A stretch of 36,300 nucleotides of DNA from an uncultured Lachnospiraceae bacterium. Lineage in GTDB: Bacteria; Bacillota; Clostridia; Lachnospirales; Lachnospiraceae. Below the pieces are notes generated by a model. It searched no databases. It was not told where the DNA came from and saw nothing but the letters and a program-made list of their open reading frames with translations. Positions 16,212 through 17,910 of this stretch are shown one piece after another. The DNA lies in the NCBI GenBank assembly GCA_900320485.1, contig ONSO01000024.1, positions 1-36,300 on the forward strand, written 5' to 3'. Each line of letters opens with the position of its first letter. Position 1 is the first letter of the stretch. Position numbers and translations under genes: made by a program.

Positions 16212-17495
16212 TTATTTAATGGCCGCAAATCCGTTCTGGAGATCCGCGATAATGTCATCAATGTGCTCCGTTCCAATGGAAAGACGGATGGTATTCTGCT
16301 TGATGCCCTGATCAGCCAGCTCCTCCTCCGACAGCTGGGAATGCGTGGTGGATGCAGGATGAATCACCAGGCTCTTCACGTCAGCCACGTTGGCAAGAAG
16401 GGAGAAGATCTTCAGATTGTCAATAAACTTCCATGCCTCTTCCTTACCGCCCTTTACTTCAAAAGTAAAGATGGATGCGCCGCCATTGGGGAAATACTTC
16501 TTGTAGAGCGCATGATCCGGATGATTCTCGATGGAAGGATGGTTCACCTTCTCCACCAGAGGATGATTCTTTAAGAACTCCACAACCTTCTTTGTGTTCT
16601 CCGCATGTCTCTCAAGGCGGAGGGACAAGGTCTCAACGCCCTGCAGAAGTAAAAAGGCGTTAAAGGGAGAAATGGTCGCGCCCGTGTCGCGAAGCAGGAT
16701 CGCGCGGATATAAGTCACAAAAGCTGCCGGGCCTACTGCATCCGCAAAGGAAACGCCGTGATAGCTGGGGTTGGGCGCTGCAATGTTAGGATACTTGCCA
16801 CTTGCCTTCCAGTCAAACTTTCCGGACTCCACGATAATGCCGCCAAGGGTCGTACCGTGTCCGCCGATAAACTTTGTTGCGGAATGTACGACAATGTCTG
16901 CACCATGCTCGATGGGACGAATCAGATAAGGCGTTCCAAAAGTATTGTCAATTACCAGGGGCAGCCCGTGCTTATGCGCGATCGCCGCAATGGCATCAAT
17001 GTCGGGAATGTCGCTGTTGGGGTTGCCAAGGGTCTCAAGATAAATGGCTCTGGTATTGTCCTTGATGGCTCCCTCCACTTCGGCCAGATCATGTGCATCC
17101 ACAAACGTAGTCTCGATCCCATACTGAGGCAGGGTGTGCTCCAAAAGGTTAAAGCTGCCGCCATAGATGGTCTTCTGCGCCACAATGTGTCCGCCGTTTG
17201 CCGCAAGGGCTTCAATGGTATAAGTAATGGCAGCGGCGCCGGATGCAACGGCCAGTGCAGCGCTTCCGCCCTCCAAAGCTGCAAGTCTCTTCTCCAATAC
17301 CTCCTGAGTGGAGTTGGTCAGTCTTCCGTAAATGTTACCTGCATCAGCCAGTCCAAAGCGATCTGCCGCATGCTGGCTGTTATGGAAAACATAAGAAGTG
17401 GTCTGATAAATGGGCACTGCCCTGGAATCCGTTGCGGGATCCGGCTGCTCCTGGCCTACGTGTAACTGTAAAGTTTCAAATCTGTAATCGCTCAT
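16212..17495 (-). CDS. metY: O-acetylhomoserine sulfhydrylase (O-acetylhomoserine aminocarboxypropyltransferase)
   Basis: 427 aa, the normal MetY length. This PLP enzyme makes homocysteine from O-acetylhomoserine and sulfide, and is a route of direct sulfur assimilation into methionine. The N-terminus [19 protein letters not shown] and [13 protein letters not shown] are typical of Met[25 protein letters not shown] follows, and the PLP lysine is in [16 protein letters not shown] near residues 208-223. AAGGAG lies nine to ten bases before the ATG. The gene is monocistronic and has an unusually long, structured leader with an upstream Cys/Met-rich ORF and a terminator, which suggests control by Cys or Met supply. 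Confidence 0.93.
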
Positions 17496-17602
17496 GGTTT
17501 TATTCTCCTTTTTCCATATGACTTTTTGTTTTACGTGTTCTTCTCTAAATTTTTTTCTTATTCATTTTTCCATTTTTAAGTGCCCGGCACCCGAACGCGC
17601 AT

Positions 17603-17637
17603 AAAAAATGCCCGGGGCGTATGGATACTCCCGGGCA
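17603..17637 (-). terminator. Intrinsic terminator (attenuator) in the metY leader
   Basis: On the RNA strand TGCCCGGG (17637-17630) pairs perfectly with CCCGGGCA (17616-17609), with a small inner GTA/TAC helix in the loop, followed by U6 (17608-17603). It lies 108 bases before the metY ATG and would stop transcription before the gene. Confidence 0.88.
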
Positions 17638-17667
17638 AAATGGCAATCCGATCATGCAGACATAGTC

Positions 17668-17790
17668 TCAATGCATTCTCACAAGGCGCGCGGAAAACCG
17701 TCCAAACGCCTCAGCCACTTTACGTGCCCGGGAGTTACACATTCGACAACACATGCACTTCGTCTCCTTTTCGATCTGTCCACCAAACAT
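17668..17790 (-). CDS. 40-aa Cys/Met-rich leader peptide upstream of metY
   Basis: The ORF starts at ATG 17790 with AAAGGAGG eight bases upstream, and stops at TGA 17670-17668. The peptide begins MFGGQIEKETK, followed by CMCCRMCNSR at residues 12-21, and ends ARLVRMH. Four Cys and two Met codons lie within seven codons. Immediately after them codons 19-22 contain CTCCCGGGCA, the exact complement of the 5' arm of the downstream terminator. The likely role is a sensing leader peptide for attenuation. A small metal-binding protein with a CxCC-x2-C motif is the alternative. I found no family match from memory. Confidence 0.75.
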   Translation of the reverse strand: MFGGQIEKETKCMCCRMCNSRARKVAEAFGRFSARLVRMH

Positions 17791-17841
17791 TTTCCGCGCC
17801 TCCTTTCGATTTCATTTGTTTTGTTTGCTTCAACTGAAGTC

Positions 17842-17870
17842 ATCATAGCACTTAATGCCGACTATGTCAA
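17842..17870 (-). promoter_or_regulatory. Strong SigA promoter of the metY leader
   Basis: On the minus strand TTGACA (17870-17865), exactly 17 bases, TATGAT (17847-17842). The -35 is a perfect consensus. Confidence 0.88.
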
Positions 17871-17910
17871 TAGGTTTTATAAATTTTGTGTAATTTAGAT
17901 TTTTTCATGA

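Follow-up and report, generated by a model that had tools for sequence, protein, structure and literature searches.

The metY gene of this uncultured Lachnospiraceae bacterium is preceded by what is very probably a transcription attenuator of the leader-peptide type, responding to how much charged cysteinyl-tRNA is available. Judged from comparison of sequences, the same device appears to stand before sulfur genes in many gut and rumen Clostridia. In these leaders the promoter usually overlaps a CCTATTGACA-type palindrome and is followed by a ribosome site and a peptide in which M-C-C-R-M-x-x-S-R-A holds a constant position; the antiterminator strand begins 14 or 17 nt downstream of the first base of the last Cys codon, and an intrinsic terminator follows. 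The comparison establishes an ORF with fixed Cys spacing, a strand that would compete with the terminator, four further covarying pairings and a position before sulfur genes. Compared with the first-pass annotation of the metY locus, what is added is a multi-operon regulon, its presence in several Clostridia families and beyond, and two further parts of the antiterminator (the ATGGC/GCCAT helix and the GGGGCG/CGCCTC hairpin).

The metY leader

The window is the whole stretch of 36,300 nucleotides that was analysed. The promoter, ribosome site, 40-codon ORF, terminator and metY gene all lie on the minus strand where the first-pass annotation had placed them, Table 1.

Table 1. Parts of the metY leader and their positions in the window (feature, positions, strand, basis).
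Feature	Positions	Strand	Basis
Candidate operator palindrome CCTATTGACATAGTCGG, overlaps the -35 box	17858..17874	(-)	sequence, operator-site search of the genome
Sigma-70-type promoter TTGACA-17-TATGAT	17842..17870	(-)	11/12 consensus bases, extended TG
-35 box TTGACA	17870-17865	(-)	17-nt spacer to -10 TATGAT
Shine-Dalgarno AAGGAGG of the leader ORF	17799..17805	(-)	
GCGCGGAAAA, 5' strand of the helix able to hide the leader ribosome site and start codon	17790..17799	(-)	
Leader ORF, 40 codons, peptide MFGGQIEKETKCMCCRMCNSRARKVAEAFGRFSARLVRMH	17668..17790	(-)	ORF translation; HMM relatives
Control codons Cys-Met-Cys-Cys (TGC ATG TGT TGT)	17746..17757	(-)	
Near-invariant CGA ATG (Arg-Met)	17740..17745	(-)	
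Antiterminator 5' strand CTCCCGGGCA	17725..17734	(-)	covariation, terminator overlap in relatives
Second antiterminator helix, 5' strand GTGGC, partner 17644-17640	17714..17718	(-)	
Internal hairpin, 5' strand GAGGCG, partner 17688-17683	17707..17712	(-)	
TTTTCCGCGCGCCTT, 3' strand common to the internal hairpin and the ribosome-site-hiding helix	17683..17697	(-)	
GCCAT, second antiterminator helix, 3' strand	17640..17644	(-)	
TGCCCGGGAG, terminator 5' arm = antiterminator 3' strand	17628..17637	(-)	
Intrinsic terminator, stem 17637-17609, run of six T	17603..17637	(-)	
metY, O-acetylhomoserine sulfhydrylase-type enzyme	16212..17495	(-)	TIGR01326, E 3.9e-191

In the window sequence, an intrinsic terminator is present between the leader ORF and metY, and CTCCCGGGCA is the exact complement of TGCCCGGGAG. 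GCGCGGAAAA is likewise the exact complement of TTTTCCGCGC (17697-17688). The distance from the antiterminator strand to the stop codon had been given as 57 bases and is in fact 54.

The fold of the whole window leader has a z of -1.76, with 9 of 200 shuffles folding equally well, and without the terminator arm the z is -0.22. As this fold is unremarkable for its composition, support must come from the relatives, and single-sequence folding, not clearly distinct from shuffles, was dropped as evidence. A promoter and terminator scanner returned about as many matches in the window as in shuffles; the metY terminator is missing from its output, probably because the scanner allows loops of at most 8. 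Rfam gives no match to a SAM riboswitch or T-box model at the metY locus of the window.

Leaders in related genomes

Relatives of metY were taken from 60 related genomes plus the own genome, and the upstream regions of the 16 closest copies (82% identity or more, own included) were read. Five of them have the leader (L001-L004, L008) and two a variant small ORF (L005, L007); no leader was seen upstream of the other nine (L006, L009-L016). The leaders of L004 and L008 have no clear terminator. The variant of L007, MLILFELLLRANFRYGRMPVSRANHGT, keeps GRM..SRA and a pairing strand and has no Cys codon, and that of L005, MLHIFEKLVRNNYRFGRMCCPHC, has its Cys codons after RM; both may have decayed or may sense something else. 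L003 has a repeated stretch with GAAACCAAGCGACACCGAAGGTGGCATTTGGTTTC palindromes between the terminator and metY.

For the genus we used the pattern CGAATGN5CTCCCGG, which fixes 13 bases and makes no demand on Cys. It has 27 matches in 25 of 138 genus genomes, and the reversed pattern has none. Eighteen of the 27 are leader ORFs; metY follows 15 of them, and cysK, an ABC permease and an ABC solute-binding protein follow one each. At least two of the four codons before CGA are Cys codons in 18/18 of these leaders (the window leader included), and none of the other nine matches has one there. The promoter core CTATTGA is found upstream of 17 of the 18 against one of the nine, and a complementary terminator arm in 15 of the 18 against one of the nine, three pattern-found leaders having no recognisable arm. 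With a peptide HMM, 22 of the 138 genomes give a match at E 1e-3 or better, and leaders gained in this way precede a PepT-like peptidase operon, cystine-type binding proteins, MetN-like ATPases and a YeiH-like permease. Here 'cystine-type' and 'YeiH' are names that we take to apply, the Pfam names being SBP_bac_3 and Cons_hypoth698.

One genome per species was scanned for ATGTGYN{3,6}CGAATGN6TCCCGGGC, a pattern in which TCCCGGGC is fixed, giving at least 121 matches in at least 120 stretches. The hosts among the matches listed (80 of the at least 120 stretches) are Lachnospiraceae, Ruminococcaceae, Saccharofermentans, Blautia, Eubacterium, one Atopobacter isolate and a Coriobacteriaceae MAG, the last with its match on a 4.8-kb contig that is possibly mis-binned. 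The leader is far from universal, since the peptide HMM A2 at E 0.01 finds it in few genomes: 23/392 of the order, 16/391 of the class and 14/398 of the phylum. Strong HMM matches (E below 1e-5) are spread over several families and extend to another class of the phylum (L277, L278). Peptide-HMM matches between E 0.001 and 10 were counted as members only when read by eye; several of these weak matches, such as L100, L103-L106, L247 and L269, are chance. Two loci have tandem leaders, 127 nt apart in L133 and about 400 nt apart in L151, and these would act in series if both work.

For the quantitative comparison we collected 135 non-redundant leaders from all loci. From 334 raw candidates, 201 remained after asking for 8 or more pairs and applying other filters, 168 of these had a T run, 162 were left after removal of spurious or N-holding rows, 137 after thinning, and 135 after two more spurious rows were removed. 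Among the relatives carrying the leader, the ORF and its Cys codons persist, as do the mutually exclusive stems, in which compensatory changes are seen; this is as expected from the first-pass annotation.

Promoter palindrome and the own genome

The palindrome CCTATTGACATAGTCGG at the metY promoter is presumably an operator, and we take it to be a candidate site of an Rrf2/CymR-type sulfur regulator. A strict form of the motif lies within 220 nt upstream of 99 of the 135 leaders, compared with 28 of 675 control windows. The own genome has three sites with at most one mismatch to the promoter palindrome CCTATTGACANAGTAGG, and all three are followed by a leader with CCRM; a single site with two mismatches has no leader behind it.

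The first of the three leaders is that of metY in the window. The second precedes a PepT-like peptidase operon (TIGR01883 over cut-off) that includes two cysteine-synthase-family genes. The third (L289) precedes an ATPase for which NCBIfam gives MetN as the best match (TIGR02314, E 1.2e-106, below cut-off); its peptide, MSKLNISWQLNMARCCRMYRHGAEEMTVHGGLFGCA, has lost S-R-A and, as read by eye, the locus has kept GGGCAGA/TCTGCCC and ATGAC/GTCAT. The same genome has one SAM riboswitch, before metK, and one T-box over cut-off (of seven matches), before a cysS.

Directly before metY, four of the leaderless copies (L006, L010, L012, L015) retain a promoter that closely resembles the CCTATTGACA-type palindromic one. 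As the palindromic promoter is kept where the attenuator is absent, promoter control can be separated from attenuation.

Genes behind the leaders

For 156 of the 160 leaders examined, an ORF of at least 40 residues lies within reach. By family, 135 of these ORFs are of sulfur type, 17 probably so, and 4 are other or unplaced. The 135 comprise 96 PLP enzymes of Cys/Met metabolism (90 of metY type), 35 MetQ/NlpA-type binding proteins, 3 cysK and 1 MetN-like ATPase. Twelve of the 35 binding proteins are fused to a family-3 binding domain, the split being made by string match with Pfam run on representatives. The probable targets are 7 amino-acid-type ABC permeases, 6 PepT-like peptidase operons and 4 family-3 binding proteins; the remaining four are 1 YeiH-like permease, 1 iron-alcohol-dehydrogenase-like gene and 2 at one locus. 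In L142, L125, L141, L179 and L208 the leader-controlled gene seems to encode a single chain joining a family-3 (cystine-type) binding protein with a MetQ/NlpA-type lipoprotein; the domains PF00497 and PF03180 were found for L125, and the other four are assigned by string match.

This set of targets bears on whether the leader might instead sense ribosome-targeting antibiotics or general translation stress, like bmrB of Bacillus subtilis. Any stall at the place of the Cys codons would give read-through, but the codons at that place are Cys codons and the genes behind them are sulfur-type for 135 of the 156 targets, with another 17 probably so, so that we hold a stress sensor to be highly improbable.

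Leader peptide and reading frame

The last Cys codon lies one codon before Arg in 112 leaders and two codons before it in 23 (135/135), and the RM pair is present in 135/135; these counts are not independent evidence, as the filter demanded both a Cys codon within two codons of Arg and the RM pair. Where the search made no demand on Cys, the Cys codons are present in 18/18 pattern-found leaders and in 3/3 operator-promoter sites of the own genome, both sets including the window leader. The Arg codon is CGA in 133/135 leaders and in 36/37 of a loosely found subset, CGA being fixed in the two DNA patterns given above. It is a rare codon, used for 1 of 96 Arg in five window genes. Cys most commonly occupies codons 14 and 15 and the main Cys run lies a median 25 codons before the stop codon. 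In the eight codons before RM, metY leaders have 2.05 Cys and binding-protein leaders 2.55, a small difference. CGATGTTR is found at the stop codon in 41/135 leaders, and Cys is the last residue of 46 peptides; Cys may be checked a second time near the stop codon.

The ORF appears to be translated. In all 121 pattern matches listed the gap between the first Cys codon and CGAATG is 3 or 6 bases, which keeps the frame; gaps of 4 and 5 were allowed and do not occur among them. Each of these matches lies inside a small ORF that has an SD-like stretch of at least 3 bases. In the 14 codons starting at Arg, frame 0 is open in 133/135 leaders, the other frames in 88 and 68. The SD-like stretch has 4 or more bases in 128/135 leaders and 3, the minimum of the filter, in the other 7. 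From start codon to Arg there are 14-16 codons in 103/135 leaders, with varying residues. A short ORF that looks translated, with clustered codons for the amino acid of the pathway, is thus present, as in leader-peptide attenuators.

These observations weigh against a metabolite- or tRNA-binding RNA of the riboswitch or T-box type with an incidental ORF, which we judge to be very unlikely. Such an RNA would fit the conservation of CGAATG and CTCCCGGG beyond codon needs. It would also fit L262, where a TAA stop cuts the leader ORF just past CCRMR and the RNA is retained, the antiterminator and terminator strands still being complementary. The frame-keeping gaps, the SD-like stretches, the open frame, the constant start-to-Arg distance and the adjacent Cys codons in 18/18 leaders where they were not demanded all speak for a translated ORF; in addition there is no Rfam match, and the same genome has a recognisable SAM riboswitch at metK and an over-cut-off T-box at cysS.

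The first-pass annotation had proposed a Cys/Met codon cluster. The Met codons near the Cys codons are more replaceable than Cys in the leaders compared. A sensor of Met, or of Cys and Met together, is possible and on balance doubtful. It draws on the Met found within four residues before RM in 129/135 leaders and 32/37 loosely found ones, on the Met codon after Arg in 135/135, and on the many targets on the methionine side (metY, the MetQ/NlpA-type lipoprotein, the MetN-like ATPase). Most of the set, however, was obtained with a pattern containing ATG, and the filter required the RM pair; six leaders have no Met before the Cys codons while Cys is kept in 18/18 and 3/3 cases without a Cys filter (L007, with no Cys, apart). 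Moreover, a ribosome stalled at the Met after Arg would be in the wrong place for read-through, because it would cover part of the antiterminator strand.

RNA pairings and covariation

Pairings were evaluated by a self-versus-nonself test, in which the segments of one leader should fit each other better than segments from different leaders if they are paired. All five pairings score in the 135 leaders, each with 0/2000 permutations as low. For the antiterminator strand with the terminator 5' arm the z is -11.4, a value biased by the choice of the 3' strand for its complementarity; the first-pass annotation had noted this ten-base complement in the window, and it covaries in the relatives. The leader ribosome site with the CGCCTC region, the third pairing proposed there, gives -10.3. 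The second antiterminator helix ATGGC/GCCAT reaches -8.0 and the internal hairpin GGGGCG/CGCCTC -8.4. The terminator arms give -7.1, with a pairing better than the median non-self partner in 76 leaders and worse in 57. Two control region pairs score +0.5 and -1.7. The result for the five pairings holds in 63 leaders under 74% similar and in the 37 found by HMM or loose pattern. A local hairpin a:b of the antiterminator strand covaries weakly (z -3.4, 1/2000 permutations as low).

A terminator search that ignores complementarity located terminators in 118/135 leaders and none in the other 17. For 116 of these terminators, at least 5 nt of the 5' arm fall on the complement of the antiterminator strand.

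The MAFFT alignment A3 was made from 50 of the 63 thinned leaders; the other 13 were left out by hand, chiefly for unusual length. In it 84.9% of cells are paired, and both sides have changed in 15 of 21 pairs, with 0/500 shuffles as high, and sliding the partner by one column cuts pairing to 49-51%. For the second antiterminator helix 5/5 pairs changed on both sides and 75.7% of cells pair; for the internal hairpin 66-80% of cells pair. RNAalifold on A3 recovers the first helix with 10 pairs, a covariation term of -0.51 and changes on both sides in 6/10 pairs; the second antiterminator helix and the internal hairpin are absent from its consensus of the 50 rows. An antiterminator that excludes the terminator and is conserved with covariation, as in known leader-peptide attenuators, is thus found in this family.

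The peptide S-R-A varies to S-R-T, S-Q-A or T-R-A, with the strands staying largely complementary. Examples are SRA with CTCCCGGGC/GCCCGGGAG, SRT with CTCCCGGAC/GTCCGGGAG and SQA with CTCCCAGGC/GCCTGGGAG. Selection at the RNA level is visible within the stretch that codes for the peptide. If the ORF made a Cys-rich peptide with a job of its own, e.g. metal binding or as a RiPP precursor, and the terminator merely ended the transcript, the Cys content of 11% and the conserved M-C-C-R-M-x-x-S-R-A would be natural. However, the ends of the peptide vary freely, S-R-A changes together with the terminator arm, and the leader precedes different sulfur operons, which makes a functional peptide extremely unlikely.

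Folding states and a model of the switch

When the RNA is folded from the edge of the stalled ribosome onward, the minimum-energy fold contains the antiterminator (at least 8 of its 10 pairs) in 115/135 leaders, and fewer than 5 of its pairs are seen in 15/135. If the ribosome is placed at the stop codon, forward pairing of the terminator arm is seen in 119/133. In RNA without the terminator arm, five or more ribosome-site bases are paired to the hairpin 3'-strand region in 78/135. A ribosome usually covers about 12 nt past the first base of the A-site codon. As the Cys codon starts 14 or 17 nt before CTCCCGGGCA, a ribosome awaiting Cys-tRNA should just leave the antiterminator strand free.

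From these folding states we propose a stall and read-through model. When Cys is short, the ribosome would wait with a Cys codon in its A site and its front edge just short of CTCCCGGGCA. The freed strand would pair with the terminator 5' arm, aided by the ATGGC/GCCAT helix and the GGGGCG/CGCCTC hairpin, and with the antiterminator formed transcription would continue into metY. When Cys is ample, the ribosome would reach the stop codon and open the internal hairpin, and the terminator would form. After passage of the ribosome, or without translation, the hairpin 3' strand would pair with the leader ribosome site, shutting re-initiation and favouring the OFF state, in the role of the trp protector hairpin. 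The repressor-type operator at the promoter would probably add a second sulfur control.

By pairing energies the antiterminator thermodynamically beats the terminator, so that the OFF state would need kinetics. We infer these kinetics, together with the starvation-ON logic and the role of the ribosome-site helix. The spacing from start codon to Arg would leave room for a second ribosome at the start site. The conservation of CGA may serve the RNA, may slow the ribosome, or both.

In Bacillus subtilis, RNA polymerase reportedly outpaces the ribosome (PMC9226507, which cites Johnson et al. 2020, in the part of that text concerned with this point). We tentatively offer, as a rather unlikely reading in its full extent, a Cys attenuator regulon of Clostridia and beyond whose layout answers transcription running ahead of translation. 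The Cys-CGA-ATG spacing would set one stalled ribosome exactly before the antiterminator, the switch strand would either build the antiterminator or lock the leader ribosome site, and the rare CGA would act as a timing codon. Under this reading, it would not matter if the ribosome lagged behind the polymerase, the decision falling to one stalled ribosome and the switch strand.

Comparison with known systems

Rfam, Pfam and NCBIfam have no credible match to the leader family; three weak Pfam names each match one of 46 members with E 0.03 or worse. No account of this family was found in the open-licence literature searched, subscription journals and preprints lying outside that scope. Sulfur genes of Bacillota are regarded as the territory of riboswitches, T-boxes or repressors. 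Leader-peptide attenuation is classical, and a few cases of it in Bacillota, taken up below, are known or predicted. If true, a conserved multi-operon attenuator would show large-scale translation-dependent termination in gut and rumen Clostridia, would provide a testable model of the mechanism through its spacing, CGA codon and ribosome-site lock, and would allow Cys-responsive sulfur uptake and methionine genes of uncultured gut bacteria to be predicted from sequence alone.

The enteric attenuators of trp/his type have a leader peptide with control codons and an antiterminator sharing the terminator 5' arm, and so do the leaders described here. In contrast to them, the stop codon lies far past the antiterminator strand, and the protector role apparently falls to the pairing of the leader's own ribosome site together with a weak local hairpin. 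In the trp subclass the antiterminator strand lies under a ribosome that has reached the stop codon, and with 54 nt between the two in the window the leader was not assigned to it. That the device is no copy of trp, as the first-pass annotation had argued, agrees with a stop codon a median 75 nt past the Arg codon (135 leaders) and a terminator arm that starts beyond the stop-codon ribosome in 133/135.

Experimental work exists on mycobacterial Cys leader peptides. The Cys leader peptides of Actinobacteria including Mycobacterium, as far as described in the sections consulted of PMC1262725, have runs of Cys codons before cys genes, as here, but these lie near the stop codon and have no obvious terminators. 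With an intrinsic terminator and a main Cys run well before the stop codon, neither the window leader nor the family falls in this terminator-less class as the source outlines it.

Within Bacillota, the ilv-leu leader of Staphylococcus aureus also combines amino-acid leader-peptide transcription attenuation with a promoter regulator; according to the portion of PMC5794164 available, it has a Leu-rich peptide and reads Leu at one operon, with staphylococcal homologues. The bmrB leader of Bacillus subtilis is another case of ribosome-mediated transcription attenuation in Bacillota, but in the available text its signal is antibiotics and its target a drug transporter (PMC4191407). For hisS/hisZ of bacilli, leader-peptide attenuators have been predicted in place of T-boxes (PMC2965389, in its available passages); these read His, and we set them beside the present family by description.

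A further counterpart is the uORFC-8-2 motif, a Cys attenuator before cysS in Rhodobacterales with a U-tailed terminator (PMC8632094, in the part describing the motif). Its uORF carries a tandem pair of Cys codons, most often at positions 14 and 15, as in the leaders described here, and it too has a terminator. Taxon and gene differ, and we did not assign the family to this motif, the two being set apart by description. As far as that source describes it, uORFC-8-2 is found in alphaproteobacteria only, before cysS only, and with the Cys codons inside the first stem (PMC8632094), whereas the present family belongs to Clostridia, precedes many uptake and assimilation operons, and has CRM-xx-SRA and an SD-hiding helix, the cysS of the own genome having a T-box instead.
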